A DNA stretch of 33,019 bases from Candidatus Brocadia sp. (GTDB lineage Bacteria; Planctomycetota; Brocadiia; Brocadiales; Brocadiaceae): contig WYAU01000052.1 of NCBI GenBank assembly GCA_011525665.1, positions 1 through 33,019 of the forward strand, written 5' to 3'. This document shows positions 18,690-31,868 of this stretch, piece by piece. The translations under genes were made by a program, and so were the position numbers. The notes below the pieces were generated by a model. That model was not told the DNA's origin, made no database searches, and saw only the letters and a program-made list of their open reading frames with translations. How positions within the stretch are numbered: position 1 is the first letter of the stretch; the number at the start of each line of letters is the position of its first letter.

Positions 18690-18693
18690 TTAT

Positions 18694-18747
18694 CTACCGA
18701 AGTACATTACAAAACGACCAGACTTTTGAGACTAATGCATCAGTCAT
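18694..18747 (-). pseudogene. hsdM N-terminal fragment (17 codons)
   Basis: One base after the DUF1016 stop, an ATG opens the codons MTDALVSKVWSFCNVLR, the well-known start of type I restriction N6-methylase HsdM, and then hits TAG. Behind it comes an hsdS-like 3' end. The body of hsdM and most of hsdS are therefore deleted, leaving a scar that shows the original order DUF1016, hsdM, hsdS. Confidence 0.7.
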
Positions 18748-18748
18748 A

Positions 18749-19516
18749 TTATTTTTCCTTCCCTGCGGCAGATTCACCCAACAGATAATATTCCTGCAAT
18801 TTTTTCCGCAAAATCTTTTTCGGTATGAGTTTTGTTTTATATTCAGCAACCAGCGCAGGAGAAAGATTGCGACTAAGCGCGTACTCCACTACTTCATCAT
18901 CCTTTGACTTGCACATAATAATACCCACGCTGGGATTTTCATCCGGCTTTTTCACATCCCTGTCCAAGGCTTCAAGGTAAAAATTTAGCTTACCCAGATA
19001 ATCGGGTTTAAAGTCGTCTATTTTCAGTTCAACTATTACCAAACACTTAAGCCCCCGGTGGAAGAAAAGCAGATCAATAAAATAATCGTTTTTACCAACC
19101 CGGATCCGGTATTCCTGACCAATAAAGGTAAAGTCCGTGCCGAACTCAAGAATGAAATGCTTTAAATTGGTAACAATACCACGTTGTAAATCTTTTTCAC
19201 TGTGGGTTTCGGGAAGGTTTAAGAAATCCAGAACATAGATGTCTTTAAATACCTCAATTGCGTCGGGACGGATTTGTGTCGCCGCTGGTGACACTTTCTT
19301 TTTGGAAATCATCACCCGTTCGTAATAACCGCTGTCAATCTGACGTTCGAGTTCACGTGAACTGTATTTCTCTTTGATGGAAAGCATCAGATAAAATTCG
19401 CGTTCTTCTTTTGACTTGGTTTTAGAAAGAATCAATAAATGGTTGGTCCAGCTTATTTGTGTCAGCACTGCTGACACAAATTTCTTCTGCCGATATATTT
19501 CGTAAAACTGCCGCAT
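18749..19516 (-). CDS. DUF1016/YhcG PDDEXK nuclease family protein, 5'-truncated
   Basis: The 255-residue product carries the middle and C-terminal parts of the family: ISWTNHLLILSKTKS, ELERQIDSGYYERV, and the nuclease core GTDFTFIGQEYRIRV, YFIDLLFFHRGLKCLVIVEL with Asp and Glu-x-Lys of the PD-(D/E)XK site, then NPSVGIIMCKSKDD. Family similarity continues upstream in frame to about 19591 (VDSLANYIQINHSEFKGF), where it meets an hsdS-like end, so about 65 N-terminal residues are missing, including the YWDIG motif. The ATG at 19516 is the first start. Family members often lie inside type I restriction loci; their role is not settled, though nuclease activity in defence or recombination is suspected. 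Confidence 0.8.
   Translation of the reverse strand: MRQFYEIYRQKKFVSAVLTQISWTNHLLILSKTKSKEEREFYLMLSIKEKYSSRELERQIDSGYYERVMISKKKVSPAATQIRPDAIEVFKDIYVLDFLNLPETHSEKDLQRGIVTNLKHFILEFGTDFTFIGQEYRIRVGKNDYFIDLLFFHRGLKCLVIVELKIDDFKPDYLGKLNFYLEALDRDVKKPDENPSVGIIMCKSKDDEVVEYALSRNLSPALVAEYKTKLIPKKILRKKLQEYYLLGESAAGKEK
19455..19481. repeat. DUF1016 linker palindrome A
   Basis: Perfect 13-bp arms ATTTGTGTCAGCA / TGCTGACACAAAT lie around a single base. On the minus strand it encodes FVSAVLTQ immediately before ISWTNH. The centre is the first base of a codon. Confidence 0.9.
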
Positions 19517-19604
19517 CCTGAAAAGTCCCCGGCGGGTAAATCCTTTAAATTCAGAATGATTGATCTGAATATAATTTGCCAGACTATCAACACTGCTGAG
19601 AGTT

Positions 19605-19815
19605 TTATGTCCGCCCGTTCGGCTTGTTATTTAAAGACTCTTTCTCGGCTTTAATTTTTCGAGGAGCGCTTCGGCTGAATTCTCACCGGATATTAAATCC
19701 TTGTGATCCTTGCGCCACTGTTCAGTCAGCTTGCCTTAAAAGCCCTACACCTTCCAATGCCTGCTTTTTTATCAAGTTTGGCAACGATTTTTTTGTAAAA
19801 GAGTCGTTGACCCTA
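19605..19815 (-). pseudogene. hsdS-like C-terminal fragment with repeat (scar 2)
   Basis: On the minus strand the codons read KLTEQWRKDHKDLISGENS, then AEALL, then (after a one-base deletion in an A-run) KIKAEKESLNNKPNGRT and TAA at 19605-19607, a typical HsdS C-terminus. Upstream, LLRQ and the LDK-type helix are present but frameshifted. Bases 19661-19745 are identical over 85 bases to 28043-28127. It leads directly into the truncated DUF1016 gene. Confidence 0.65.
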
Positions 19816-19999
19816 TTCCCCTAAACTAAATAAGTCAACTGCCTGTAACCTTGTGTTTTTACTGAGACGTAAGATGCAAAATGTTCAAAAATGATCTATA
19901 AACCACTATGCCAGTTCCCTGCCCTACCCTGCCCTTTAGATCGCAGAAACGACCATTTCGGATTGGACGATTTCTTGTTTTTTTGGCGGCAAAATCTCT
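19816..19999. repeat. Repeat-rich spacer, partner of 28204-28435
   Basis: Bases 19821-19900 closely match 28204-28280 (CTAAACTAAATAAGTCAACT and onward). Bases 19960-19994 are a shortened copy (middle removed) of the element GGATTGGACGA to TTGGCGGCAAA that is complete at 28361-28432 and 30516-30587. No gene is visible. Confidence 0.65.
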
Positions 20000-20503
20000 T
20001 TATTTATCTACTTTGTAATCTGCTTCCCCTTCTTCAATTCCTTTTCTGGCTTTTTCAAAAGCCCATTTAGGAATTTGAGGAGATTCTATATTTAATTTAT
20101 TCCTTCTGTCGTTAAGCTTCTTCAATTCTTCAATAACTTTACCATCGTCTAAGCTATTTACCTCAATATCATAAAATATCCTTGTATCATTACGCAAAGA
20201 GGTATACTTGTTCCCTGCTTTATGATGAACAGAGGCTCTTTCATTCGGATTAACAAAAGTAATTACTGCAGTCAAACCAGCTACGATAATAGAAAGTACC
20301 CCAGCAACTATAGTGTGATAATCGAAGTGCGAAAGCGCAGAAGCTCCAGCAATTGCTGAAAGTAGCGCAGAGATTCCGCCAAGCCACAAATGCACATTTC
20401 CCCAGCATTGACCGGCATAAAAATGTCCCTTTGCCGAATAAAGGCAGTCTTCTTCAATCCTTTTAGCTTCGGTTATTGTTTTTTCTTTATTTGTCATAGT
20501 CAT
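20000..20503 (-). CDS. SLATT-domain two-helix membrane protein (putative CBASS-type effector)
   Basis: The 167-residue protein has an N-terminal helix (KEKTITEAKRIEEDCLYSAK), two membrane segments (about residues 36-57 and 64-84) joined by a short loop, FVNPNERASVHHKAGNKYTS directly after the second, and a C-terminal charged helix. This is the layout of SLATT proteins, membrane effectors linked to nucleotide-signalling enzymes, thought to damage the cell membrane when a second messenger arrives. The gene immediately upstream (11 bases away) is a CD-NTase, which supports the assignment. Because that enzyme is truncated, the effector may no longer be triggered. Confidence 0.75.
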   Translation of the reverse strand: MTMTNKEKTITEAKRIEEDCLYSAKGHFYAGQCWGNVHLWLGGISALLSAIAGASALSHFDYHTIVAGVLSIIVAGLTAVITFVNPNERASVHHKAGNKYTSLRNDTRIFYDIEVNSLDDGKVIEELKKLNDRRNKLNIESPQIPKWAFEKARKGIEEGEADYKVDK

Positions 20504-20514
20504 AATATTTAGGT

Positions 20515-21219
20515 TTACCCATATGCAGGAAAGTAATCACCAAATATTTTTTTCCACTCATCAACTGCATTTTCAATGTAGCCCCTCCCTGCATAATCTT
20601 CGGCCTTGATTGCTCTATTATAGGCGGTTTCAAATTTACTTACAGCGTCCACAACCGTCGAACAATTTCTAAGCCCATTTATTTGCCCGCCATATGCTAC
20701 AGGGTCTTGCACTTTATATTTTATCGCCTCACGTCCTTTGTCAAAGAAAAACCTCATTCCACTTGGATAATCAGAAATAGTTATATTTTTGAAAATCTTA
20801 ATCGCTAATAGTTCCAAATAGAAAGAAATAAAAGCATAATTTATATTTTTATTCCAACCTTTTATCATTTTTACTATTGGCACCAAATCGCTATTATGAT
20901 TTATATTTTCACTACTCATGACATCAACATGAACTTTTGGATTTGTTGAAATCCAAGTTTTTTCCACTGAATTTGGTATTAAATAGCCGCCACCTTGACG
21001 ATTAAAAGCTGGTACAACATCAACAATAAAATCTGTAAACGTTACACTAACAGCCTGTCCGTTTCTGCTGATTTTTGGCGTTGTCGTATAGGTTTTTAGC
21101 AAAACCCTTTTTACTTTATCAAGTAGATTTGCTTGTCCGTCTACCTCATAATATTTCGGGTCCAATACAATAAAAATATCAATATCTGCTTCTGAAATCC
21201 GCCTCTTGCCGTAAGAGCA
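20515..21219 (-). pseudogene. CD-NTase (SMODS/cGAS-like nucleotidyltransferase), 5'-truncated
   Basis: The frame holds most of a CD-NTase: the metal-binding strand SEADIDIFIVLD, then LLDKVKRVLLKTY, the third acidic strand FIVDVVPAFNRQGGGYLIP and the C-terminal helical half (MIKGWNKNINYAF, then LELLAIKIF). Such enzymes make cyclic oligonucleotides that trigger effectors. The N-terminal helix and most of the GSY(A/G)xxT nucleotide-binding motif are gone. The open frame begins in hsdS-like DNA that happens to encode CSYGKRR directly before ISEAD. No ATG is available before the catalytic strand; the first alternative start is TTG at 21165. Activity is unlikely unless that fused end substitutes. 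Confidence 0.8.
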
Positions 21220-21300
21220 TCATCCCTTCTGATGTAGCCATCTCTTTATCAAATTTGGCAACGATTTTTGTAAAAGAGCCGCTGAACCTGTTATTCACTT
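21199..21300 (-). pseudogene. hsdS-like fragment fused to the CD-NTase (scar 3)
   Basis: Minus-strand codons read FTKIVAKFDKEMATSEGM, then MLLRQEAD, the same helical hsdS-like end as scar 1, and pass without a gap into the CD-NTase. The shared 19-base word is at 21199-21217. The lesion joins two genes at TCTTACGGCAAGAGG, which can be read as LLRQE in one frame and SYGKR in the other. Confidence 0.6.
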
Positions 21301-21352
21301 GTCCATCTCAGGCAATTCAGTATTATGTCCCCGGAATTTCCCTAGTCTATCC

Positions 21353-21823
21353 TTATTCAATAATTCCGCAAACTCTTTTGCCTTGAATTTTATTTATCAG
21401 TTTTTCAAGCATCCCGCCTTTGCTGACATAACCTATGGCGATTTCATCTGCCAGTTCAATCATAAATTGGTTTCTCTTTTCGGCTGTCTCAGAGGTAACG
21501 CGGTTTATGGATTTATCAAAAGGAGTAATTAACAATAATCTGTCTGCGTCAATAGCCGTTTTAATTTCCGGTTCGATTTTCTCTTTCATTCCCCGCGCCA
21601 ATGCTATGATTACCGGCTGTGTTCCTGAAAGCAGGTAATGGAATACGTCTTTTTCAATTTTTGAATGAAATCCACTAATTACGCATTTCCCTTTGTCCCG
21701 CTGTTCGATTGCCCAATCATAGCACTTCAATACTGCGGATGCCGGTATATTACGGCTGCAAAGAAAGGCCGTTTTGGGAAGATTTAATATATTTTTATTG
21801 CCTACAGACTCGACGATTTCCAC
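21353..21823 (-). CDS. DprA/SLOG-like nucleotide-binding protein
   Basis: The 156-residue protein shows the Rossmann-like SLOG pattern of DprA relatives: VISGFHSKIEKDVFHYLL, VIIALARGM, RLLLITPFD, SETAEKRNQFMIELAD and IAIGYVSKGGMLEKLI. DprA proteins bind single-stranded DNA; standalone SLOG proteins are suspected sensors or nucleotide-processing enzymes in defence loci. This one is shorter than DprA and lacks extra domains. Its start overlaps the end of the DUF1016 gene by 22 bases, so the two are probably read together. The C-terminus (QGKRVCGIIE) may have been altered by the junction that follows. Confidence 0.68.
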   Translation of the reverse strand: MEIVESVGNKNILNLPKTAFLCSRNIPASAVLKCYDWAIEQRDKGKCVISGFHSKIEKDVFHYLLSGTQPVIIALARGMKEKIEPEIKTAIDADRLLLITPFDKSINRVTSETAEKRNQFMIELADEIAIGYVSKGGMLEKLINKIQGKRVCGIIE

Positions 21824-22606
21824 TTGTCCCTCTTTTTGTGCTTTTTCCCCATCGTTTCTTTTCCAAGTTCTTTTTCAATCTCTTCCACCGTGGGCAGAAC
21901 TGATTTTAGTTTTTTCGGCAGGGCGCGGGTAAGCTCATAATCTGAAACGCCGATGGGTTTCTGTATGTCACGCATTGCATATTCTGCCAAAATACGATCC
22001 TTGGTCTGGCAAAGTATAAGGCCGATTGTTGGATTATCCGTTTCATGTTTTACTTTGTCATCAACCACCGAACAGTAGAAATTCATCTTCCCTGTGTATT
22101 CAGGCTTAAAGTCGCCTTTCTTTAAATCAATCACAAGAAAACATCGGAGTTTCAGATGATAGAAAAGCAGATCAATATAAAAATCTTTGTTACTGACCTC
22201 AATATGGTACTGCCGGCCAACAAAAGCAAAACCCGCGCCCAATTCAATCAGGAATTTTTCAAGATGCTGAATCAGACTTACCTCCAATTCCCGTTCATGA
22301 AATGGTTCTTCCAAGGTAAGAAAATCAAACACATATGGGTCTTTTAACATTTGAACAGCCATGTCAGATTGGGGAGTCGGAAGTCTCAAATGAAAATTGG
22401 TGACTGAAGTCCCTTGTCATTTGTGCAGCTTGTTCTTTATCATAAGATCCATTACATCACGGCTCCAGCCATTTTCAAGGGCTTGCCACATATACCAAAA
22501 GCGAGTCTGCATATCTTTGACCTTTTCCATCAGCAGAATATTGTGTCCCCATGGTATTTTTGCGATGAGATTGTGTAAAATTATCAGGACAGCACCATCG
22601 TTTGTT

Positions 22607-22627
22607 TTTGCCACAGATTGTGGCAAA
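22607..22627. repeat. DUF1016 linker palindrome B1
   Basis: Perfect 9-bp arms TTTGCCACA / TGTGGCAAA lie around GAT. On the minus strand it encodes LPQSVAK and is centred on the first base of a codon. Confidence 0.85.
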
Positions 22628-22671
22628 TTCTTAGCTTTTCCCTTTGGAATGGTGGAATCCATCGGAGTAAT

Positions 22672-22706
22672 ATTCAATTTTGCCACAACCTGTGGCAAAA
22701 TTGAAT
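22672..22706. repeat. DUF1016 linker palindrome B2
   Basis: Perfect 16-bp arms ATTCAATTTTGCCACA / TGTGGCAAAATTGAAT lie around ACC. It encodes SILPQVVAKLN on the minus strand, again centred on the first base of a codon. It shares its inner core with B1. Confidence 0.92.
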
Positions 22707-22985
22707 TCCGCCCGGAATATTCGCGGTAAAAGGCAATCATACGCCCTATGTTTCGCTCAGAAAAGCCTTTCACTTCTGGTAATTCATTGCGTAAATATTT
22801 TGCTAATCGGGGAATGACGGCGCTTCCCCAACCTTCTCTATGCTGGCGTTCATCAATTATCCGTCCAATATCCCAATACATCAAAATCATTTCGGCATTG
22901 GCTGACAGGACTGCTTTAGTTTGTGCCTGACGAATGCGGATTTTTATCGCAGAAAGCAGGTCTGCATAACGCATTAATTCAGCGC

Positions 22986-23097
22986 TCATGTATTATCCTC
23001 CTCACTGTCCAGTTCCTTACCCATACGATACTTGATGTCGTAGTTGATGATGAAGTCAAGCTCTTCGTGGGTGAAACCGTAATTTCTGTTAAGTCCC
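22986..23097 (-). pseudogene. C-terminal fragment of an Eco57I-type DNA methylase
   Basis: Upstream of the split DUF1016 gene the codons read NRNYGFTHEELDFIINYDI, then KYRMGKE and a short acidic tail ending in TGA, overlapping the DUF1016 ATG by ATGA. YGFTxEELDFIINYDIKYRMG is a common end of Eco57I-like restriction-modification methylases. The rest of the methylase has been lost and the AAA ATPase gene lies there instead. Confidence 0.65.
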
Positions 23098-23128
23098 CCC
23101 TTAACAATTGGGGACCAAGGGTGTCCGC

Positions 23129-25549
23129 TTAATACGCTTTCCGCCTCTTGCCGCAAGAACACTTTACTGTATTTTCAATATTGTCGTAATATTTTTTGGA
23201 AATAAGATTGTTACACTGATCACATCTGAAAAGGCCTTCCAACTCCAAAACGTCACCGTAAAACATTTTCAGGTCATCAATACTTTCAGTGAATGTACTA
23301 TCATGGGAAGTTCGGTTGCCGAGAAACATGGAAGCATTAAGCCTATCAAATACAGGTTGATCTTTTAATTCACATTTTCTGTCTTTAAGTTTGCCCTTTA
23401 ATTCCGACAGCAATTCATTAGACATTCTATTTTCATTATGCTCATTGAAAAGAAACTTTACCTTAACTTCAAGGTTAAAGCAGACATCCTTTAAAAGCCG
23501 TTCAAGGTATTTGCGTATCATGTTCCCTAATTCTGAGGAATCTGAACTTTTAAGCTTCGTTTCAATTCTTTCTTTTAAATCAATTAAAGGCTCTTCAATA
23601 CTTGCCCCGCCCTCATGTTCCCATCTCATTTTTTTAATTAGCCAGTTTTTACCTTTAACCATGTTTGAGACAATCTCAAACCAATCCTTTTCATGGGTAA
23701 AAAGAAATATCTGATAATCATTGAATTTTTCCACCAAAAGTCTTGCAAAGAGAGCGCGATGATTTGTATCAAAGCTGGATATTACATCATCAAGGACAAT
23801 AAACTTATTGAACTTATTAAAAGCCTTTACAGACGCTAAGAACAAGCATATCCCAAGACAATTCAAATGAGATTCGCTCAGATACTTGTGCGGTGGCGAT
23901 TCCGATTTCCCATGAAATTTGAATTGGAGCGTTATTCCCAAAAACTCATCATCTGCGCCCAAAGGAATAAGCTCTATCTCGCTGACATTTTCAGAAGTAT
24001 TCATAAACAAATAAAGGTCGTTCATGTATCTGGATATAGACTCCAAGAATGCACAAAGACCTTCTCGTTGTTTTTTTACGAAATCGTTATAAATAAGTTC
24101 CATAGATTGTTGTTGCTGAGTAAGAACCTCTGAAGCCTTTTTCATGGATTTGATTTCATCATAGAATTGCCTGACGGAAAATACCTTGCTATAGACTGTA
24201 AAGGTCTGATCTTCTTTTTTTCCGGTAATTATCTTTGACTTTTTATCTATAAAGGAAGAATTCAAATCTTGCAAAAAGGTCGCATCCAAATCGATAAAAT
24301 CTTCAGGCTTACTGACTTGTTCAATTTCGGAAATATCAGTTTTTTGAAGTTTCTCTAAAGCAGTTGAGATTATTTCCTTAAGCCGTTCAACTTTTTTTCG
24401 TAAATCAGCATTTTCATCCAGGAGCATGCTCTTCTCTTTTAACGCATTGTTTATTTCAGTTATAGCTCCTTGAACAAATCTTTGAGTTGTATCTTTTTCA
24501 TCTATTGCGGCTTCCTTTTCTTTTTTAACAATAGTCAATTCTTCAAGTCTCTTTCTTAACTCATCAATTAATTCTTCTCTGCTTTTATCTTGCAGGCAAA
24601 GAGGGCATCTATCCTCCTCGTATAATCTCTTTTCAAGAATTGAAAACCCTTGTGACAATAGTGGCTCAAGACCTATTTTTTTAAGCTTATCTTGATCGTT
24701 GGCAATCTGCTGATACTTTTTATAGAAAGACTTATAAGAGGAGCAAATATTGTCAAAAGAAGCCTTGAAATTGCTTAAATTTTCAATAATTTTTTCATAT
24801 GAAAGCTGTTGCTCGACAGCCTCTTTATCTTCCGGTTTCTTTAGCAGTTCCAGCACATTATTTATGCCTGCATCGTCTTTAATCTCAACAGACAGATTCA
24901 GCGGAGCAACTAATTCTTTGATGGCATTCAAATATTGGTTATCGTCAAAAATGCTTTGCCCTATCTGCTCCATTACTGAACGCTGCTTTATGCTTATATG
25001 ATTGTTATAATCCTTTATTTTCTGCTCTTTCTTTAACTCACCGACAGCTTTTTTAAAGATACCTTTTACTTTTGATACCTCAGAAAAACCTATTATTTGT
25101 GAAATTTCTTCAAGTTTCTCCGCCTTAGTAGATAAAATAAACCTCAATAAATCCTTATATCTAAGGATAAGATTTTCTTTTAACGATGTGCTTAGATAAT
25201 CTTTGAAATCCTGCGAAGCATTTGAATGCTCGATGGTAAGTTTTGATTTTTTGAGAAATAACCTTTTCGTTGAATCATATTTTGAATTCGAGTATTTCAG
25301 ATCAAAGTAAGCATCTTGGTTATCCGATAAAAAAGTATTTCTCAGGGCAGTAATACCCTTTATATCAATTTCTTCTGATGTAAGATGTTTTACCTTGTCG
25401 TAATAAAACCATTCAAAGGCATCTGCGATGGAGCTTTTTCCACTGCCGTTATCACCATAAATGAGAACTGACTTGCCTGGACTCAAATCAAGATTAACAA
25501 TTTTTCTAATTCCTCTAATACCGCATATTTCAAGGTTTTTGACTTTCAT
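23129..25549 (-). CDS. Zinc-hook AAA/SMC-type ATPase, likely defence protein
   Basis: The 806-residue protein is a RecF/Rad50-like ATPase. It has Walker A YGDNGSGKSS (about 31-40), coiled coil on both sides of a CPLC zinc-hook (about 315), signature YLSESHLNCLGICLFLA (about 556), Walker B KFIVLDDVISSFD (about 582) and an H-loop LFTHEKDW. A C-terminal helical domain with GNRTSHDS (about 744-751) resembles the Arg-x-x-His part of HEPN-like domains, but loosely. A zinc ribbon follows (CDQCNN, then CSCGK). The last residues KRRKAY are encoded by hsdS-like DNA (word at 23141-23159), so the natural end is replaced. It is the last gene of a four-gene cassette and its ATG overlaps the preceding stop (ATGA). 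RloC and PrrC relatives are similar in outline, but identity is not established. Confidence 0.8.
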   Translation of the reverse strand: MKVKNLEICGIRGIRKIVNLDLSPGKSVLIYGDNGSGKSSIADAFEWFYYDKVKHLTSEEIDIKGITALRNTFLSDNQDAYFDLKYSNSKYDSTKRLFLKKSKLTIEHSNASQDFKDYLSTSLKENLILRYKDLLRFILSTKAEKLEEISQIIGFSEVSKVKGIFKKAVGELKKEQKIKDYNNHISIKQRSVMEQIGQSIFDDNQYLNAIKELVAPLNLSVEIKDDAGINNVLELLKKPEDKEAVEQQLSYEKIIENLSNFKASFDNICSSYKSFYKKYQQIANDQDKLKKIGLEPLLSQGFSILEKRLYEEDRCPLCLQDKSREELIDELRKRLEELTIVKKEKEAAIDEKDTTQRFVQGAITEINNALKEKSMLLDENADLRKKVERLKEIISTALEKLQKTDISEIEQVSKPEDFIDLDATFLQDLNSSFIDKKSKIITGKKEDQTFTVYSKVFSVRQFYDEIKSMKKASEVLTQQQQSMELIYNDFVKKQREGLCAFLESISRYMNDLYLFMNTSENVSEIELIPLGADDEFLGITLQFKFHGKSESPPHKYLSESHLNCLGICLFLASVKAFNKFNKFIVLDDVISSFDTNHRALFARLLVEKFNDYQIFLFTHEKDWFEIVSNMVKGKNWLIKKMRWEHEGGASIEEPLIDLKERIETKLKSSDSSELGNMIRKYLERLLKDVCFNLEVKVKFLFNEHNENRMSNELLSELKGKLKDRKCELKDQPVFDRLNASMFLGNRTSHDSTFTESIDDLKMFYGDVLELEGLFRCDQCNNLISKKYYDNIENTVKCSCGKRRKAY

Positions 25550-25722
25550 TTTTTATCCCTTATGCGGCTCAACTCATTTGACAAATTTGTATTAGTCAAC
25601 TTGCCGTCTTTATATAATTTCAGAACTGACTCGGCAACATCTTTATCCACTCCGTCAATATTCGTTATTTGAGAAAAGAACTCATCAAGTATTTCCTGTC
25701 CACTCTTGATTTGTTCAGTCAT
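25546..25722 (-). CDS. Small 58-residue protein between GIY-YIG and AAA genes
   Basis: An uninterrupted small gene reads MTEQIKSGQEILDEFFSQI, then DGVDKDVAESVLKLYKDGKL and SNELSRIRDKK. GGAGC lies upstream. Its start is three bases after the GIY-YIG stop, and its stop overlaps the AAA ATG (ATGA), so it is certain to be coupled to them. The sequence is helical and charged, with no known domain. It could be a subunit or a regulator of the ATPase. Confidence 0.75.
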   Translation of the reverse strand: MTEQIKSGQEILDEFFSQITNIDGVDKDVAESVLKLYKDGKLTNTNLSNELSRIRDKK

Positions 25723-25725
25723 GTT

Positions 25726-26187
25726 CTATGCTCCTTTTTCAAAGTACTTCCAGTTTATTTCAAGGGTTACCGGTACGTCGTGCTTTTTAATCTCAAATCC
25801 ACTCTTGTTATTGCAGATAGGATAAACGCCGTACTTATCCAAAAAATCAAGGATAAAATAACTTTCTAAGTCTTCTATACGGTGCTTCCATATCTGTTTT
25901 AACATCTCAAAATTCAGATAGGTAAAAAAAAGCCCTTGTGTATTCTTGTAATTAACAATACCTTCGTTTCCAGATATGCCCTCAAAGTGGTCTGAAAGCC
26001 TCTTACCTATACTGTTAGTCTTTTTCTCACTCATGCCTATATAAATCAGCCGCGATTTTTTGAAAGGATATGGAATTTCTATCTCTTTTAAAAAGATAAA
26101 ATAAAGCCCGCATATCCCCATTAGTGGCTTGATATTCCGCAATTCAAAATCCTGCGGCTTGTCAAAGTTGATTTTGAAAATTTGCAT
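25726..26187 (-). CDS. GIY-YIG family nuclease domain protein
   Basis: The 153-residue protein shows the GIY-YIG layout: GICGLYFIF (about 24-32) for the GIY word, RLIYIGMSE (about 46-54) for YIG, an Arg in GKRLSDHF (about 61-68), a Glu in EDLESYFILDFL (about 106) and PICNNKSGFE after it. These are the metal and catalytic positions of the fold, which cuts DNA in UvrC, homing and some restriction enzymes. It begins one base after the stop of the upstream gene and ends three bases before a 58-codon gene, so it works with them as an operon. Confidence 0.8.
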   Translation of the reverse strand: MQIFKINFDKPQDFELRNIKPLMGICGLYFIFLKEIEIPYPFKKSRLIYIGMSEKKTNSIGKRLSDHFEGISGNEGIVNYKNTQGLFFTYLNFEMLKQIWKHRIEDLESYFILDFLDKYGVYPICNNKSGFEIKKHDVPVTLEINWKYFEKGA

Positions 26188-26188
26188 T

Positions 26189-26734
26189 TTATCGGACTCT
26201 TCGTATTGAATGATGACAACCAGCTTGTGCTGGAATAGAAAAAGCAGATTTATTAATCACCGGCCAATATTTGGCTCTATGCCCATCATATATGATTTTT
26301 GTATCTACAATTTGCCCCTCATGACTACTACAGTCGCCAGGCTCCCATTTTGCATCTTTGACTCTGTATACCTGACATTTTTCAATTCCCTTTGTAAGTA
26401 ATTTCTTTGACAATCCACGCACATACCATGTATTAAATTCAGAAAAAGCTAACTGTTCTGATGCCTGTTGATAATTTATAATCCTTTCTTTTGTTACACC
26501 GTTTCGCGTATATACTTCCTTTTCCTTCCAATAATCTTGGCGTCTTAAAGATGTTTCAAGTGACTCAGCATCTCCTGATATAATTGCTTTTTTCATTAGT
26601 TCCGGAAATATTTTCTTACCAATGTCTGATAGTCGGGGACTGATGTAAGGATTTATTGAGCTTTGCTCAATATCAAATTCTTGCAACATAAATTTTCTGG
26701 TCTCATCATCTAATTCTTCAAAATCAGATTTCAT
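26189..26734 (-). CDS. Unknown 181-residue protein, first gene of the nuclease-ATPase cassette
   Basis: I do not recognise this protein. It starts MKSDFEELDDETRKFMLQEF and has a helical N-terminal half, then NTWYVRGLSKKLL, CQVYRVKDAKWEPGDCSSHE and a C-terminal part with HRAKYWPVI and SIPAQAGCHHSIRRVR. Several Cys and His are present (CSSH, GCHH). AAGGAGAA precedes the ATG. The gene is one base upstream of the GIY-YIG gene, so it belongs to the cassette, and could be its recognition or regulatory part. Confidence 0.7.
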   Translation of the reverse strand: MKSDFEELDDETRKFMLQEFDIEQSSINPYISPRLSDIGKKIFPELMKKAIISGDAESLETSLRRQDYWKEKEVYTRNGVTKERIINYQQASEQLAFSEFNTWYVRGLSKKLLTKGIEKCQVYRVKDAKWEPGDCSSHEGQIVDTKIIYDGHRAKYWPVINKSAFSIPAQAGCHHSIRRVR

Positions 26735-26775
26735 GTTAAGATTCTCCTTCTTTAAATTTATTTTCTTACAAACTC

Positions 26776-26883
26776 TTAAGGAGTCATGAGTTCACAGAAC
26801 TCCCCGACCTTTTTCACTTTTACTTTTTCTTTAAGCCAGTGCGCATAAGTTTCGACAAATTGATCGCAATCCAAGACACTCAT
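26776..26883 (-). pseudogene. DUF1828-type fragment of 35 codons
   Basis: Codons read MSVLDCDQFVETYAHWLKEK, then VGEFCELMTP and TAA. This resembles the beginning of DUF1828 proteins (small proteins of unknown role), cut after CELMTP. The DNA from 26837 onward recurs at 28915, where the same opening codons are fused to other genes. Confidence 0.5.
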
Positions 26884-26972
26884 ATGAATAACCCTCTTTT
26901 TATACAGGCATATCTTGTACATTGGAGTATCTTACAAAAATTTGGGTCTTCTAAGTTTTGTCGGGTAAATTT

Positions 26973-28007
26973 TCATGATTCCAGCTTTAATTCCTGCAGT
27001 ATCGGCAGTTTCAGGTCTTGGACATCAGGAAGCTTTCCTTTGAACGCCTTGGGCAGTCTCTTTGTGAGGTAATATTCGGCCACCCCTATTGGTTTTTTGA
27101 CACTGCGCAATGCATATTCAACTACTATGTTATCTTTATCCGCGCATAAAATAATGCCTACGGATGAATTCTCATCTTTCATCTTCACCTGTTCATCCAA
27201 AAGATGCAGATAAAAATCCATCTTCCCCGCGTATTCGGGTTCAAACCCGCCGGTTTTAAGCTCAAGCGCCACAAGACATTTAAGTTTTCGGTTGTAAAAC
27301 AAGAGATCAATAAAATATTCATTATTACCCAATGTCAGGCGGTACTGATTGCCGATAAACGAAAATCCAAACCCAAGTTCTAATATGAATTGCTTTATTT
27401 TCTCCACAAGCCTCTTTTCCAGTTCTCGTTCCAAAACCGGTTTTGTGATGCCGAGAAAACCCAAGCAGTAAGCGCTCTTTATGGTTTCGTCCGCCTGCTC
27501 GGCAAGATGCACGGGCAGGGTTTTCGGAAAATTGTGTATTTTATGTTTCAGGCTAAGTGGGTAAGCACCGGCTTTTATCTGGTTGAGAAGCACATTCCTT
27601 GACCAACCAAAATCACGAGACGATCTGATATAATATTCCCGTTCTTTATCATCGGTCAATTTCTCCATAATCAATAAATTATGTCCCCAGGGTATTTCTG
27701 CAACAAGCTGTTGCAGAAATGGCTTATCTTTATATTCCTCGTAAAATCTGCGCATATTCCAGAGGTTTCTTCCTGAAAAACCAAATGATTCCGGAAATGC
27801 CTCTCTCAAATCACGGGCAAGAGCTTCAACAATATTGTCGCCCCACGTATATTTTTTCTGCCTCTCTACAATTGCTTTGCCGATATCCCAGTATAATTTT
27901 ATCAGCTTTTTATTAACCGACCGAACGGTCTGTATCCGCGCCGTAGCGATACGCGTTTTAATCTCGTTCAAGAAATTGAGATACTCTTTGCTTATAACCT
28001 TTTTCAT
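26973..28007 (-). CDS. DUF1016/YhcG PDDEXK nuclease family protein, full length
   Basis: The 344-residue protein is an intact family member. The N-terminal helical domain has LIKLYWDIGKAIVERQ, SGRNLWNMRRFYEEY and IPWGHNLLIMEKL. The C-terminal nuclease domain has FSFIGNQYRLTL, YFIDLLFYNRKLKCLVALELK with the Asp and Glu-x-Lys pair, and NSSVGIILCADKD. Its ATG overlaps the stop of an hsdS-like fragment (ATGA), as expected inside a type I restriction operon. The linker holds palindrome C. The C-terminal LPDVQDLKLPILQELKLES is extra. Of the five copies this one is the most normal. Confidence 0.9.
   Translation of the reverse strand: MKKVISKEYLNFLNEIKTRIATARIQTVRSVNKKLIKLYWDIGKAIVERQKKYTWGDNIVEALARDLREAFPESFGFSGRNLWNMRRFYEEYKDKPFLQQLVAEIPWGHNLLIMEKLTDDKEREYYIRSSRDFGWSRNVLLNQIKAGAYPLSLKHKIHNFPKTLPVHLAEQADETIKSAYCLGFLGITKPVLERELEKRLVEKIKQFILELGFGFSFIGNQYRLTLGNNEYFIDLLFYNRKLKCLVALELKTGGFEPEYAGKMDFYLHLLDEQVKMKDENSSVGIILCADKDNIVVEYALRSVKKPIGVAEYYLTKRLPKAFKGKLPDVQDLKLPILQELKLES
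27694..27720. repeat. DUF1016 linker palindrome C
   Basis: Perfect 12-bp arms ATTTCTGCAACA / TGTTGCAGAAAT lie around AGC. On the minus strand it encodes FLQQLVAE directly before IPWGHN; the centre is the first base of a codon. Confidence 0.92.
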
Positions 28008-28205
28008 TCTAATTTTCCAATCTTTCCGGCTTTAATCTTTTTGAGGAGCGCTTCGGCTGAATTCTCACCGGATATTAAATCCTTGTGATCCTTGCGCCAC
28101 TGTTCAGTCAGCTTGCCTTAAAAGCCCCATGACTTTCAATGCTTCGATTTCTTTATCAAGTCTGGCAATGATTTTTTATAAAAGAATCGCTGTCCCTATT
28201 TGCCT
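28004..28205 (-). pseudogene. hsdS-like C-terminal fragment (scar 4), duplicate of scar 2
   Basis: Codons read KLTEQWRKDHKDLISGENS, then AEALLKKIKAGKIGKLE and TGA overlapping the DUF1016 start. Upstream, ILL-stop-KIIARLDKEIEALKV and LLRQ have a nonsense codon and a frame change. Bases 28043-28127 are identical to 19661-19745. Both copies share the same internal deletion between LLRQA and LTEQ, so they stem from one event followed by duplication. Confidence 0.65.
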
Positions 28206-28446
28206 AAACTAAATAAGTCAACTGCCTGTAACCTTGTGCTTTCTTGAGACGTAAGATGCAAAATGTTCAAAAAGGGATATAAACAGGTCTGCCAAACCTA
28301 AACCACTACGCCAGTTCACCGCTCTAACCTGCTCCTTATGCCCACAAAAGCGCCCCTTTCGGATTGGACGACTTCTATTTTTTCGTCCCGCTTTTTGAAG
28401 GACTCATAGTTTCACGCTGTTTGGCGGCAAATCCCTTTTAATTTTA
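28206..28446. repeat. Repeat-rich spacer
   Basis: Bases 28204-28280 match 19821-19900. Bases 28361-28432 are a full copy of an element also found at 30516-30587 and, shortened, at 19960-19994. I see no gene in it. Confidence 0.6.
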
Positions 28447-28618
28447 TCAATATCCGTCTTTAACATCCAATTCAATAATTTCCCACCCGCCAATTTTACT
28501 TTTAATAGCATTAAACCGATCTTGGTGAAGAGCAAAACATAATAAATGCGTGGGGGCGTGACATAGCTACATAAGCAATTTTTGCCGTCTCCTTTTCGGT
28601 TTTATTTGAAAATGTATT
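28447..28618 (-). pseudogene. Superfamily I (UvrD-like) helicase C-terminal fragment
   Basis: On the minus strand the codons read NKTEKETAKIAYVAMSRPH, then, after a frame change, FALHQDRFNAIKSKIGGWEI and a stop. TAKIAYVAMSRP is the motif VI region of UvrD-type helicases. Only about 55 codons remain, in two frames, between repeats. Confidence 0.5.
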
Positions 28619-28658
28619 GCCCTACCCGCAAAAGCACTTTGACAACCTATCTGATTCA
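28602..28658. repeat. 57-base repeat, copy 1
   Basis: This segment (TTATTTGAAAATGTATTGCC onward to TATCTGATTCA) agrees with 30605-30661 at 55 of 57 positions. Here it lies between the helicase and DUF1016 remnants; the other copy lies after the 30,687 DUF1016 gene. Confidence 0.85.
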
Positions 28659-28815
28659 CGCCTTGTTTCTTTCTTAAAATATCGAATATAGAAATCCCGT
28701 GCTGACTCATTATCAACCCGCATCAGCAACCGGTAAATGCGTCCAACTCCATTGGCTACGCAGTGCGTCGCCAATTGGAAATGTCAGGTAAAACTGCCTC
28801 ATATTTTTTACATTG
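28622..28815 (-). pseudogene. DUF1016 remnant with internal deletion
   Basis: Minus-strand codons read RQFYLTFPIGDALRSQWSWTH, then, after one extra T near 28735, RLLMRVDNESARDFYIRYFKKE and a stop at 28622. The first part matches the middle of the family. YIRYFKKE matches a place about 150 residues later in the 30,687 gene (YIRYFEKE). Both sites share GATTTCTATATTCG or a close form, so the middle was probably lost by recombination between them. Confidence 0.65.
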
Positions 28816-28961
28816 GACACTTTCACATTTTTTAATCTTAAATAAATTATCCCGTAAAAGGAAACTCCTTCATTAATCGCTAATGTACCAAAATCTACAT
28901 CATGGGTAATAAGCCAGTGCGCATAAGTTTCGACAAGTTGATAGCAATCCAAAACACTCAT
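28713..28961 (-). CDS. Chimeric 82-residue ORF made of three gene pieces
   Basis: The ORF joins MSVLDCYQLVETYAHWL (opening of the DUF1828-type fragment also seen at 26,883), ITHDVDFGTLAINEG with FYGIIYLRLKN (a DUF5615/PIN-like toxin piece), and MRQFYLTFPIGDALRS with WSWTH (DUF1016). It is uninterrupted and could be translated, but each part is incomplete, so it is probably a by-product of rearrangement. Confidence 0.45.
   Translation of the reverse strand: MSVLDCYQLVETYAHWLITHDVDFGTLAINEGVSFYGIIYLRLKNVKVSNVKNMRQFYLTFPIGDALRSQWSWTHLPVADAG
28751..28775. repeat. DUF1016 linker palindrome D
   Basis: Arms ATTGGCTACGCA / TGCGTCGCCAAT lie around one base with a single mismatch. On the minus strand it encodes IGDALRSQ directly before WSWTH; the centre is the first base of a codon, as in the other copies. 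Confidence 0.82.
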
Positions 28962-29215
28962 ATGAATAATCTTCTTTGTATATTGGAAAACTCTTGCACA
29001 TTACAGTATCTCAAAAATTTTTCATGACGTTATAAAGATTGTTATTTGAATTTGCTAATTCATCAGGTGCCGGTATTGCCCACCTACTTGCAAAACCCTC
29101 GACATAGATATGAAGATGTGGGCATGAATCTCGATCCCATTATAAGGTACAAGAAAATCAAGAGGAACGCCCGCGACTACAAGATTCGGATGACTTTAAT
29201 TGGCGATAGGTGGTG
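28962..29215 (-). other. Spacer with a possible gene scrap
   Basis: No complete gene is visible. On the minus strand two frames together read VPYNGIEIHAHIF and PHLHIYVEGFASRWAIPAPDE, which look like one small protein broken by a frameshift. I cannot name its family with confidence. Bases 28915-28980 repeat 26837-26905. Confidence 0.3.
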
Positions 29216-29554
29216 TTAGAAATTGTTCAGATATGCTTTGATTCTTTCACAGTTTTCATTTTCCTTGTCGCCCTTATAATATATCTCGATAAAAACAATC
29301 CTCAAATCATTACAATGGAAAGCATAAATAATCCGCAGAGAAGAACCCTTTAGATAGCGGCAAAACAAACGCGCCTTTACGACAGTGCAACGGTCATTTT
29401 TTGTTACAATACTAAAATGTTTACTGTTTCCCAAAGGCTCAACAGTGATTACGTGTTTAAACTCCTCCAGGTCATCCGGCAATGATTTGTATTTTTTACT
29501 CATCCGCTTAAATTCTTTGGCAAATTCCGGCAGTTCATTAAAGTTCATCGTCAT
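29216..29554 (-). CDS. RelE-like toxin of a toxin-antitoxin pair
   Basis: The 112-residue protein has the RelE/HigB pattern: FAKEFKRMSKKYKSLPDDLEEF helices (FxKxFKKLxKKYxSL), then VKARLFCRYLKG, SLRIIYAFHCNDLRIVFIEIYYKGD and a final helix ERIKAYL. Such toxins cut mRNA at the ribosome. It overlaps the upstream antitoxin gene by 17 bases, so its production depends on antitoxin translation. The catalytic residues of RelE toxins are variable and I cannot confirm activity. Confidence 0.75.
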   Translation of the reverse strand: MTMNFNELPEFAKEFKRMSKKYKSLPDDLEEFKHVITVEPLGNSKHFSIVTKNDRCTVVKARLFCRYLKGSSLRIIYAFHCNDLRIVFIEIYYKGDKENENCERIKAYLNNF

Positions 29555-30332
29555 AGTTTCTTACTGAATAACGTTCGTCCCGATAGAACACGCTTTCATA
29601 AGAAATTGGCTGACCTTCCTTTGCCGCTTTCCACGGCATATCCTCGTGAGAGTAATTTTCTATTTCTTTAGCATTTTTATCAGAAAGACGAGCCAGAACT
29701 TCCTCTATATGACCAATTTCTCGTGCCGAAAGGGCATTAAGATCGGCTCGCTTAACCGGCAGATATTTTTTTTGCAAATGGTTAAAATATTTGCTTTTTA
29801 CCGCTTCAATCTCGCCGTTTCTCTGCATATCTTTTAAAATCGTCCCCAACTCAACCGATGTCGGTCCGTGATGATTTTTAATGTAAGTCGCCCCCATTAA
29901 GTTTTCTTCATACTTTTCATAATAATCAAAATCGATAAAATAAAGAAGTTTATGAAGTACGGTTTCGCCTACATTTGGCTTGCTGCCGACTTTTTCCAGA
30001 ATATAAAGCAACACCTGCTTGAATTTATCAAGATTCTTTCGCGTTACGCGGATTTGAAGACCGGCATCTGCTTTTTTATCTACACCCGCTTTTTCTAAAA
30101 TAACCTCATGTCTTGGCTCTTTGCCGGTTAAAAAATCGTCAAAAGAAATGCCAAAAATATCTGCAAGTATTTTTGCAGCGGAAATAGTTAAATCCTTCCC
30201 GCCCTGCTCGATTTGGATATAGGTAGGACGGGATACGCCAATCTTTGATGCCAGATACTCCTGCGTCAGATTGTGCTTTTTGCGCATGTGTTGGATGAAT
30301 TTTGGAAGTTTGGAAACATGATAGTTAGCCAT
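29538..30332 (-). CDS. Antitoxin with XRE HTH and Panacea (DUF4065) domains
   Basis: The 264-residue protein begins with an XRE-type helix-turn-helix (IQHMRKKHNLTQEYLASKI, then GVSRPTYIQIEQGGKDLTIS), followed by a Panacea/DUF4065-like domain: LYFIDFDYYEKYEENLMGAT, IKNHHGPTSVELGTILKDM, LSAREIGHIEEVLARLSD and WKAAKEGQPISYESVFYRDE. Panacea domains act as the neutralising part of many different toxin-antitoxin pairs, and here the DNA-binding part would give self-repression. The gene directly precedes and overlaps a RelE-like toxin. Starts at the ATG with no better upstream alternative. Confidence 0.85.
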   Translation of the reverse strand: MANYHVSKLPKFIQHMRKKHNLTQEYLASKIGVSRPTYIQIEQGGKDLTISAAKILADIFGISFDDFLTGKEPRHEVILEKAGVDKKADAGLQIRVTRKNLDKFKQVLLYILEKVGSKPNVGETVLHKLLYFIDFDYYEKYEENLMGATYIKNHHGPTSVELGTILKDMQRNGEIEAVKSKYFNHLQKKYLPVKRADLNALSAREIGHIEEVLARLSDKNAKEIENYSHEDMPWKAAKEGQPISYESVFYRDERYSVRNYDDEL

Positions 30333-30686
30333 ATATATCTCCCAAAAATAGACTTTGATTCTTTACGGTATCACAATATTATTTCTTACGTTATTATGTT
30401 AATCTATGTAAATATATTTATCAATTAAAATGTAAATAATATTGACAATCGTAAAAATAGCCAAGCAGCAGGCAAGGATTCAGCCCTCCCTTCCGCCCGC
30501 AGAAGCGACCCTTTAGGATTGGACGATTTCTATTTTTCCGTTCCGCTTTTGGAAGGACTCATGGTTTTAAGCTGTTTGGCGGCAAATTCGTTTTGAATCC
30601 GGTATTATTTGAAAATGTATTGCCTTGCCCGCAAAAGCACTTTGACAACCTATCTGATTCATGCTTTTTTTATTTTTTACAACGCT
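30333..30686. repeat. Spacer with two repeats
   Basis: The AT-rich part next to the antitoxin (30340-30460) probably holds its promoter; no clear boxes were picked. Bases 30516-30587 and 30605-30661 are second copies of the repeats at 28361-28432 and 28602-28658. There is no gene. Confidence 0.6.
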
Positions 30687-31793
30687 TCAGGTTTTTCCCT
30701 TTTGATGTTTTTTGATTTCCCTCTCTAGTGCCAGTTTTTCTCTTTGCAATTCCTCTATCAGCTCTTTTTCAGTAGGCAAATAGAGTTTGTATTTCGAGGC
30801 AAAGACGTTCTTGCTGTTTTCAAGGAGCGTATAACGCGCCATAGCCTCATTTTTCTCGGCGCAGAGAATCAATCCGATTGTAGGGTTGTCTTCTGCATGC
30901 TTTATTTCTTTCTCAAAATATCGAATATAGAAATCCATCTGACCGATATCCTGATGGGTTAGCTTGCCGACTTTCAGATCAATAAGCACGAAGCATTTCA
31001 GAATAAAGTTGTAGAAGACAAGGTCGATATAAAAGTGATCGCCATCTATAGTTATCCGTTTCTGTCGGGACACAAATGAGAATCCCTTTCCAAGTTCCAA
31101 AAGGAAATCTTGCAGTTTGTCTATCAGACCTTGTTCCAACTCCTTTTCAAGATAATCTCTGTTCTCCTTCAGCCCAAGAAATTCAAGAACATAAGGGTCT
31201 TTTATAACATCGTGGGGTGTCGCTGACGGTTCAATCTTCTGTATTTCAGTCCTTACCCGTCTTTTGTTTTTGCTTGCTAGGATGCGCTCGTAGTAGAAGG
31301 AGTTTATTTGCCGCTCCAACTGGCGTGTGCTCCAGTTTCCGGCGATGCACTCGTCAAGATAGAATTTACGGACAGCAGGCCGCTCTACTTTTAAAAGCAA
31401 CCGGTAGTGGGTCCAAGAGAGTTCCGGTCGGATTACGGGTAATTCGTCACGCAGTGCGTGATGAATCTTATCAGGTAAAAATTGTGAACGCTCTGCGTTC
31501 AGAATCTCGAATGACAGGTAAAACAACCGCATATATCGCAAATTCGTTTCAGTAAAACCTTTTCCAAAATCCCTGGTTAAACGTATTGATAGTTCCTTTA
31601 AAAGATACTCACCATATCCAGCCTTTGCTTTGCCCCGCTGTTCTTCCTCAACAATAAGTTTGCCGATGTTCCAATACGCCTGAACCATAGCAACATTGAC
31701 GGCAGAGTAAGCCGTCTTTCTGGCATCTTCAAGAATCTGCCTAATGTTTCGATAAGCAGTATCTATTGGCTTGGAAATTATGTTTTTATCCAT
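30687..31793 (-). CDS. DUF1016/YhcG PDDEXK nuclease family protein, full length
   Basis: From the ATG at 31793 (MDKNIISKPIDTAYRNIRQ) the product has about 368 residues. It contains VQAYWNIGKLIVEEEQ, RDFGKGFTETNLRYMRLFY, LSWTHYRLLLKVERP, ERQINSFYYERIL and the nuclease core FSFVSRQKRITI, FYIDLVFYNFILKCFVLIDLK, NPTIGLILCAEKNE. The start is chosen because the codons before it belong to an hsdS-like end (stop 31795-31797), one base away. The linker holds two palindromes (E1, E2). This DUF1016 is of a different subtype from the 26,973 gene, with LSWTHY in place of IPWGHN. Confidence 0.88.
   Translation of the reverse strand: MDKNIISKPIDTAYRNIRQILEDARKTAYSAVNVAMVQAYWNIGKLIVEEEQRGKAKAGYGEYLLKELSIRLTRDFGKGFTETNLRYMRLFYLSFEILNAERSQFLPDKIHHALRDELPVIRPELSWTHYRLLLKVERPAVRKFYLDECIAGNWSTRQLERQINSFYYERILASKNKRRVRTEIQKIEPSATPHDVIKDPYVLEFLGLKENRDYLEKELEQGLIDKLQDFLLELGKGFSFVSRQKRITIDGDHFYIDLVFYNFILKCFVLIDLKVGKLTHQDIGQMDFYIRYFEKEIKHAEDNPTIGLILCAEKNEAMARYTLLENSKNVFASKYKLYLPTEKELIEELQREKLALEREIKKHQKGKT
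31442..31466. repeat. DUF1016 linker palindrome E1
   Basis: Arms ATTCGTCACGCA / TGCGTGATGAAT lie around one base; the only mismatch is a G:T pair. It encodes IHHALRDE on the minus strand, seven residues before LSWTHY; the centre is the first base of a codon. Confidence 0.85.
31481..31505. repeat. DUF1016 linker palindrome E2
   Basis: Arms ATTGTGAACGC / GCGTTCAGAAT lie around TCT with one mismatch. It encodes ILNAERSQ on the minus strand and is in the same codon phase as E1, 14 bases away. Confidence 0.82.
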
Positions 31794-31794
31794 T

Positions 31795-31868
31795 TTAACC
31801 GTTTCCCTCTCCCCACACCTCGGCAATAATTCTTTCAATACAACTTTCCGCCTTTTGGTGCAAGAGGT
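31795..31868 (-). pseudogene. hsdS-like 3' end (scar 5)
   Basis: Codons read VHLLHQKAESCIERIIAEV, then WGEGNG and TAA, one base before the DUF1016 start. It matches scar 1 (RLLRQEAGRRIERMIAEVW). The shared 19-base word appears as a diverged copy at 31848-31866. It begins just after the stop of the unknown 357-residue gene. Confidence 0.6.

Follow-up and report, generated by a model that had tools for sequence, protein, structure and literature searches.

DUF1016 copies and palindromes in the Candidatus Brocadia window

The DNA analysed here, a 33,019-nt stretch of contig WYAU01000052.1 from Candidatus Brocadia sp. that we call the window, carries five regions of the DUF1016/YhcG family, and palindromes lie in the part of each region that encodes a linker at or before a W-(S/T/G)-H motif (Table 1). 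A preliminary description of the window had listed seven such palindromes in five DUF1016 copies, each centred on the first base of a codon. All seven are present as listed, with 26/27, 18/21, 32/35, 24/27, 22/25, 22/25 and 20/25 self-complementary positions in coordinate order, and the arithmetic of the open reading frames places a codon's first base, in the minus-strand frame, at every centre (19468, 22617, 22689, 27707, 28763, 31454 and 31493). Five DUF1016 regions exist as well, one of them being a gene split by a frame break and another a remnant. In the two intact copies both DUF1016_N (PF17761) and YhcG_C (PF06250) match (Pfam, E ≤ 0.001). The family corresponds to the PADLOC model PDC-S02 (best E 2.2e-146), in which PDC presumably stands for phage defence candidate.

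An exact match to CTGCAACANNNTGTTGCAG occurs in the 3.63-Mb source genome only as the palindrome of copy 3 (27694-27720), with a single two-mismatch hit elsewhere. Copy 1 holds, between its two domains, a further site (19273-19297) that was absent from the preliminary list; it is weaker, decoys also occur at its level of three mismatches, and similar in-gene hits were found in loci L041, L251 and L218.

Table 1. DUF1016 regions of the window, their palindromes and the predicted DNA-reading segments of copy 3.
Feature	Positions	Strand	Remarks
DUF1016 copy 1	18749..19516	-	Frame open up to 19630; domain lacks its N-terminal end
Degenerate extra site in copy 1, of like specificity, lying between the N and C domains	19273..19297	-	AAAGTGTCACCAGCGGCGACACAAA, 3 mismatches (locus L004)
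Intragenic palindrome, copy 1	19455..19481	-	Half-site GTGTCAGCA, 13-bp arms; residue-base pairs R74/position 7 G, R78/position 5 C, F77/position 9 G
DUF1016 copy 2	21802..22989	-	Split by a frame break into N domain (22417-22989) and nuclease domain (21802-22389)
Intragenic palindrome, copy 2, second unit	22607..22627	-	TTTGCCACA...
Intragenic palindrome, copy 2, first unit	22672..22706	-	16-bp arms, core TTGCCACA as in second unit
DUF1016 copy 3	26973..28007	-	Intact, modelled
Second helix-turn-helix, copy 3	27573..27650	-	Residues 120-145; weaker covariation with half-site bases 2-3
Intragenic palindrome, copy 3	27694..27720	-	Half-site CTGCAACAG
First helix-turn-helix, copy 3	27732..27836	-	Residues 58-92; would read bases 5, 7 and 9 of the half-site
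DUF1016 remnant	28713..28961	-	Behind a DUF5615-like piece; one open reading frame joins both
Palindrome kept in the remnant	28751..28775	-	
DUF1016 copy 5	30687..31838	-	Intact
Intragenic palindrome, copy 5, second unit	31442..31466	-	CATCACGCA
Intragenic palindrome, copy 5, first unit	31481..31505	-	TGAACGC core

Linker palindromes exceed chance across the family

Genes for comparison came from a sample of 199 genomes of the phylum with some further regions, and from 80 genome_contigs loci that are the best 80 of at least 569 candidates and span many phyla, a Methanosaeta archaeon among them. From 167 collected open reading frames, the linker could be mapped in 158. Codons were shuffled 200 times per gene in a way that keeps the peptide and the codon usage, and segments elsewhere in the same genes served as control. 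The excess over synonymous shuffles that the preliminary description had proposed as a check was found: 118/158 genes gave p ≤ 0.01 and 98/158 beat all 200 shuffles, the mean best linker score being 10.2 as against 4.8 in the shuffles. A score of at least 9 was reached in 118/158 linkers compared with 15/1567 control segments. By set, p ≤ 0.01 was obtained for 3/5 genes of the source genome, 49/70 of the phylum sample and 66/83 of genome_contigs; the five source-genome frames scored 9-16 against shuffle means of 4.3-5.4 (p 0.005-0.025), with 0/33 control segments at 9 or above. Shuffles that keep the peptide lose the palindrome, and we regard maintenance of the palindrome as DNA as strongly supported by these sequence comparisons.

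With genes from the Pseudomonas and E. coli samples added, the set grew to 272 linkers. A palindrome scoring at least 8 was present in 240 of these and its best representative was centred on a codon's first base in 235; in a count of 224 linker palindromes the codon phase was identical in 220. At a threshold of 9, 75 linkers had no palindrome, 175 had one, 17 had two and 5 had three. The sequences themselves vary widely, with 53 different 7-base half-sites among 189 genes (fully paired positions 2-8 only). That most palindromes begin ATT and end AAT does not extend to the family (78/199 distinct 25-mers), and the encoded peptides indeed have no fixed sequence, while many come from a few codon vocabularies.

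The family is widespread. DUF1016 matches were found in 49/199 genomes of the phylum sample, yhcG is present whole or in part in 4417/5426 E. coli genomes, and the gene was also found in 458 plasmid records and at 51 loci on viral contigs.

Residues of a recognition helix track the bases of the half-site

In a Mantel-Haenszel analysis stratified by identity outside the region, alignment column 74 tracked half-site change most closely (z 35.5, odds ratio 29), followed by columns 73, 81, 78 and 77; the input was 6430 non-independent pairs from 233 genes, so these z values rank the columns and are not probabilities. All five columns lie on the same side of the helix G-F-S-x-R-N-L-x-x-M-R, which immediately precedes the linker. 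Background-corrected mutual information, with half-site positions counted from the centre, paired column 74 with position 7 (z 10.4), column 77 with position 9 (z 9.3) and column 78 with position 5 (z 8.7), and gave weaker ties between column 105 and position 4 (z 5.9) and between columns 131, 102 and 132 and positions 2-3 (z 4.4-5.2). The pairs are Arg74-G7, Lys77-G9, Trp77-C9, Asn/Gln/Tyr78-A5, Arg78-C5 and Asp78-G5. Such partners would be chemically sensible and are of the kind expected for DNA reading: Arg or Lys with G, Asn or Gln with A, and Arg or Asp with the complementary strand.

The association persists where the base does not affect the peptide. At four-fold degenerate third bases of 92 representatives (70% identity), Arg74 went with G in 41/43 cases compared with 3/38 for other residues (p=9e-17), Tyr, Asn or Gln78 with T in 52/54 compared with 4/34 (p=7e-17), and Arg78 with G in 20/23 compared with 4/65 (p=5e-13). 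On a tree built without columns 56-149, residue and base changed on the same branch 22, 10 and 14 times, as against 4.2, 0.5 and 1.2 expected. Furthermore, tandem palindromes at different places in one linker share their core (position 2 in 35/35, position 3 in 41/42 and position 4 in 38/41 comparisons from 30 genes, some of them related), while agreement between genes at these positions is 0.54, 0.37 and 0.37.

Genes from viral contigs gave a further comparison. Among the 51 loci, 39 genes were testable in the shuffle analysis and 29 gave p ≤ 0.01. Rules derived from the earlier set were then applied, where the residue had a rule, to 26 genes with less than 70% identity to that set and among themselves (a further 4 were left out because of score or phase), and the four-fold bases were as predicted in 18/21 cases at position 7, 15/15 at position 5 and 20/20 at position 2 (53/56 overall). 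The genes of the source genome (L001-L005), which are members of the derivation set, fit at positions 5 and 7, and four of them at position 9; L003 has Arg77, a residue with no clear position-9 rule. With palindrome bases covarying with recognition-helix residues, synonymous positions included, the binding-site branch of the preliminary description is strongly supported, as is the residue-base code predicted for the first helix.

The same data bear on a constraint at the protein level, with the linker peptide packed onto the first helix and codons that are palindromic by coincidence. The palindrome encodes the linker peptide, so that this peptide necessarily covaries with the helix. However, the palindrome is lost when codons are shuffled under a fixed peptide, and four-fold degenerate bases still carry the signal. 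The core is also common to tandem copies at other places in the linker, and a non-coding site after yhcG changes by a compensated pair between E. coli strains (see below). We find this explanation hardly credible, and amino acid preference as the sole cause, which had been named as a way for the preliminary reading to fail, is ruled out by the shuffles and the four-fold sites.

A predicted ParB/Noc-like fold and a conserved nuclease domain

A model of copy 3 (58 sequences; predicted local distance difference test, pLDDT, 83.8) has helices at residues 58-70, 79-92, 120-133 and 137-145, with the peptide encoded by the palindrome at about 96-102. When the N domain was modelled alone (pLDDT 92.6), its top 11 structural matches were all DNA-binding domains of ParB, Noc or Spo0J (Z 9.9-7.5; 7bnk_A at 2.1 Å over 96 residues), and the first match outside this group dropped to Z 4.2. 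The likeness is one of overall fold. A sequence search of the PDB gave no convincing relative, its single hit having an E of 0.56. On the strength of the model, we regard it as strongly supported that the N-terminal domain is a ParB/Noc-like helix-turn-helix domain. The modelled C domain resembles EndoMS/NucS (Z 11.3), and its catalytic D..(D/E)xK residues are kept in 251/252 covered genes, which implies that the nuclease is under selection whatever use is made of it.

Close relatives and Escherichia coli alleles

Our Pseudomonas sample comprises 298 genomes of the genus of L139, 155 of them with a DUF1016_N match, and supplied nearly all of 109 genes analysed, 95 of which have a palindrome scoring at least 8. 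In 313 of 377 Pseudomonas comparisons between same-length genes at least 80% identical and both with a palindrome (the pairs being non-independent), base pairs of the palindromes showed 272 compensated changes, 296 one-sided changes and 9 in which both bases had changed without pairing. Compensatory double changes this common in close relatives are what template switching, that is quasi-palindrome correction, would produce if it kept the arms matched without selection. Such a process leaves both the clustering in the linker (15/1567 control segments) and the residue-base code unexplained, and we consider it most improbable as the sole keeper of the palindromes, while it may assist in the process.

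Site and reader also appear to move together. Genes L243 and L241 diverge by 1.4% outside and by 26% within columns 70-135 around the linker, palindrome and helix residues having been swapped together, and six E. coli pairs, all involving L174 or L175, show a similar patch swap with 20-25% divergence inside. These cases come from the ten closest pairs with different best half-sites, of which seven are usable (one from Pseudomonas and six from E. coli, where L174 and L175 were chosen for being different); the remaining three (L173 with L161, L176 and L178) compare different units of tandem arrays and are not switches. Three pairs with the same half-site and less than 3% divergence outside showed 1.7% inside the patch.

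The yhcG gene of E. coli K-12 has three palindromes, while that of O157:H7 Rafaela_II has only the first and is 78 bp shorter; in strains L174 and L175 the first palindrome differs from that of K-12, and their second palindromes are one compensated pair and some near-centre changes apart. The core recurs in two non-coding palindromes, one 15 bp past the stop codon of yhcG and the other 15 bp past that of gltD. Between strains, the site after yhcG differs by one compensated pair (CTGCAGACA/TGTCTGCAG as against CTCCAGACA/TGTCTGGAG) and in its centre, and the compensated pair points to maintenance at the DNA level outside coding sequence.

An mRNA hairpin controlling translation or decay of the DUF1016 transcript had been one of the earlier suggestions, and perfect inverted repeats could indeed fold in the transcript. 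Among 1845 pair cells, however, the mismatches were G-T in 21, A-C in 29 and of other kinds in 75, with no preference for pairs that RNA tolerates, and a hairpin predicts neither covariation of amino acids with bases nor sites past a stop codon. We therefore hold it to be extremely improbable. A structured RNA element in general was rejected on the same counts, G-U pairs not being above other mismatches.

In K-12 the yhcG-type palindromes bracket gltF-yhcADEFG (L161:633-657 after gltD and L161:8971-8995 after yhcG), and no palindrome scoring at least 10 follows gltD in two strains where yhcG comes directly after it (L179, L294). In E. coli B C2566 (L179:1382-1406) and strain 13KWH46 (L294:3382-3406), yhcG ends abruptly at the end of the third palindrome and is followed by an open reading frame annotated as a transposase.

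Sites away from the linker

In 819 kb around 234 genes, a gene's own half-site was found exactly 241 times in linkers and once elsewhere, upstream of L119. With two mismatches allowed, there were five hits in genes outside the linker, second sites between domains among them, as against 0.3 for decoys. Ten Pseudomonas genomes contain the exact site once each, three of them also holding a repeat two bases different, and a palindrome census over 400 kb of one Pseudomonas genome returned 38 scoring at least 10, one of which is of DUF1016 type and lies inside the DUF1016 gene. At L065 a palindrome with 21-bp arms is located 34 bp past the stop codon of the gene. In nine genomes with CAGAC-type genes, 14/23 matches fell within DUF1016 genes or shortly behind them and the other 9 lay elsewhere, compared with 12 control matches; the exception is G145, with four CAGAC-type matches elsewhere, two of them long-armed palindromes at L338, and zero control matches. 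Paralogues within a genome shared a core in 0/51 pairs, but 0.48 were expected, so that the count says nothing about orthogonality between paralogues.

The small number of distant sites disfavours, on sequence grounds, both a global regulator and a promoter operator. A promoter operator was considered as a candidate and rejected, upstream sites not being in excess.

Two Pseudomonas arrays (L310:1470-1565 and L311:1470-1575) have the core ACGC-N3-GCGT with varied arms and resemble the sites of ALR-type DUF1016 genes. Dispersed Pseudomonas repeats range from 0 to 406 copies of one arm type per genome. At least 20 dispersed copies are found in 48/155 Pseudomonas genomes with DUF1016 and 18/143 without (p=1.5e-4, phylogeny ignored), and five genomes without DUF1016 hold 94-354 copies.

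These distributions are relevant to the suggestion that the palindromes are selfish in-frame elements in the manner of Rickettsia palindromic elements, PARCELs or repetitive extragenic palindromes (REPs), inserted repeatedly at one permissive linker. The linker does tolerate length change, 197/272 linkers hold one to three palindromes scoring at least 9, E. coli strains differ by presence and absence (78 bp shorter in O157:H7 Rafaela_II), and similar palindromes are dispersed in Pseudomonas, with two more in G145 (L338). Yet the common codon phase (220/224) is not what independent insertions would give. The arms are diverse, with 53 half-sites in 189 genes, and match the residues of the protein that carries them, and few exact own-type sites lie outside DUF1016 loci. 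On these three grounds we disfavour a Rickettsia-like mobile element, which we think very unlikely.

A proposed binding site inside the gene of its reader

Taken together, we propose that DUF1016/YhcG is very probably a sequence-specific DNA-binding nuclease whose predicted binding site lies inside its own gene and is read by the ParB/Noc-like N domain. The first recognition helix would read the half-site at bases 5, 7 and 9, counted outwards from its centre, the W-x-H segment and the second helix-turn-helix would, less surely, read inner bases 2-4, and a dimer would by symmetry bind the full palindrome; binding in the cell and dimerisation are what we infer from this arrangement. The linker that holds the site is flanked by the codons of both predicted readers, so that reader and site are passed on and exchanged as one and change together. 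Of the options raised in the preliminary description, selection on DNA and a binding site are strongly supported, whereas an RNA hairpin, a mobile element and template switching as sole keeper are disfavoured.

Several observations weigh against this proposal or narrow it. The claim that every copy carries a palindrome holds in the window, while family-wide 75/272 linkers have none scoring at least 9, and in 29 genes whose catalytic residues are intact none reaches even 8. Two-mismatch hits upstream and downstream are at decoy level, with one exact upstream hit in 234 genes, which argues against a site acting as a classical promoter operator, and a stretch of G145 (L338:1485-1660) holds two long-armed CAGAC-type palindromes with no DUF1016 open reading frame in 1.95 kb. 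As regards the code, the sites of multi-site genes agree at position 7 in only 23/41 comparisons, YhcG of K-12 has Lys74, whose commoner partner is C, yet G is found in 3/4 sites in or just after the gene, the position-7 rule failed in 3/21 viral-contig predictions, and the position-9 rule held in 18/23 in a viral set from which only duplicates of at least 90% were removed. The second-reader columns 102, 105, 131 and 132 (z 4.4-5.9) are no stronger than columns 310 and 249 of the distant nuclease domain (5.0 and 4.5) or column 51 (4.5), except for 105 and slightly 131 and 102; phylogeny may account for part of these signals, and linkage within 200 bp strengthens the correlation between close relatives. 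Finally, with Foldseek alone no hit to the N domain reached E ≤ 0.001, ParB coming closest at E 0.86.

As for the use of the site, we lean, at slightly less than even odds, towards self-limitation, in which the protein, bound at its own gene, would hold down the output of a PD-(D/E)XK nuclease that may be toxic. Alleles would meet on mobile DNA, and the need to avoid cross-talk would diversify the sites, much as is seen for the immunity cassettes of lambdoid phages.

Alternatively, the same self-binding could mark the nuclease target, the protein cutting or nicking DNA that carries its own palindrome, either to exclude incoming copies of the same allele (kin exclusion) or to act on its own gene and start local gene conversion. 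The latter would explain the swapped patches, which are centred on the site. Few sites exist away from DUF1016 loci, the catalytic residues are kept (251/252), the nuclease domain resembles EndoMS/NucS (Z 11.3), the gene is carried by plasmids (458 records) and by viral contigs (51 loci), the family is among the defence candidates of PADLOC (PDC-S02), and an E. coli B allele is truncated where its third palindrome ends. On the other hand, the protein would also cut its own resident gene, where the site is intact, unless something protected it, and we regard a nuclease target as possible and somewhat doubtful. A homing endonuclease was also considered; its recognition site would be interrupted or absent in the allele with the gene, whereas the predicted binding site is intact inside the carrier gene.

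More speculatively, and in our estimate unlikely as a whole, DUF1016 could represent domain-wide, self-recognising lock-and-key genes, whose nuclease would identify DNA by the presence of its own allele. A cassette of about 200 bp, comprising site and readers, would then be exchangeable and diversified by conflict between mobile elements, the protein would police incoming kin DNA or start gene conversion at its own locus, and sites would have spread in some lineages, as in the Pseudomonas arrays.

Relation to known systems

Lambdoid phages have repressor-operator immunity cassettes whose readers diversify along with their sites and are exchanged with them in one piece, the operators being intergenic. 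The DUF1016 reader and site likewise diversify together and appear to be exchanged as a block, whereas the predicted site lies inside the reader's coding sequence. In Bacillus subtilis a parS site lies inside spo0J, for which no confirming passage was found.

The DUF1016 N domain shares with ParB-parS and Noc-NBS (Noc-binding site) its modelled helix-turn-helix fold (Z 9.9-7.5) and a palindromic site. According to the sections available of Jalal et al. (2020; PMC7383237), specificity in ParB/Noc is set by residues 173, 179, 184 and 201, R173 contacts guanine 1, the recognition helix and further helices touch DNA, and the specificity for parS and NBS is conserved within each family. DUF1016, in contrast, has 53 half-sites in 189 genes, the two intact proteins of the window are without the N-terminal CTPase domain of ParB (only DUF1016_N and YhcG_C were found by Pfam at E ≤ 0.001), and a nuclease domain follows.

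Palindromic DNA translated in frame inside genes is described, in the parts available, for Rickettsia palindromic elements (PMC4316617) and PARCELs (PMC2996958), in which related repeats occur over different genes. The DUF1016 palindrome is similarly translated in frame within a gene; unlike these elements, its sites are in one gene family and fit the protein of that family, and own-type sites are mostly at DUF1016 loci, with the exception of L338.

The family itself was treated in an earlier paper, whose authors we take to be Kosinski et al. (2005). In the available portion of that paper (PMC1189080), a PD-(D/E)XK nuclease domain was predicted for YhcG/COG4804 and the N-terminal ~200 amino acids were given as an unknown helical domain; that portion reports no binding site, while one is now predicted in the gene. 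An intragenic binding site for DUF1016/YhcG was not described in the literature found on the family and on in-frame palindromic elements (including PMC7022226 and PMC7967276), in the portions available and with subscription papers mostly outside the search. Nor did the portions of the literature that were searched contain a site of the kind we predict here, set within coding sequence and held in frame by the reader codons on either side. A family hitherto without a known function would gain a testable biochemical function and a predicted ParB/Noc-like DNA-binding domain. For each palindrome-bearing member the predicted binding site could be read from its own gene, and the many natural site-reader pairs would help to show how helix-turn-helix proteins choose DNA.

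Surroundings of the window copies

The source genome holds a sixth DUF1016 copy on a different contig. Within the window, positions 18596-30936 contain degraded direct repeats of 48-122 nt, belonging to families D1-D8, around the DUF1016 copies, and the arrangement suggests repeated block duplication.

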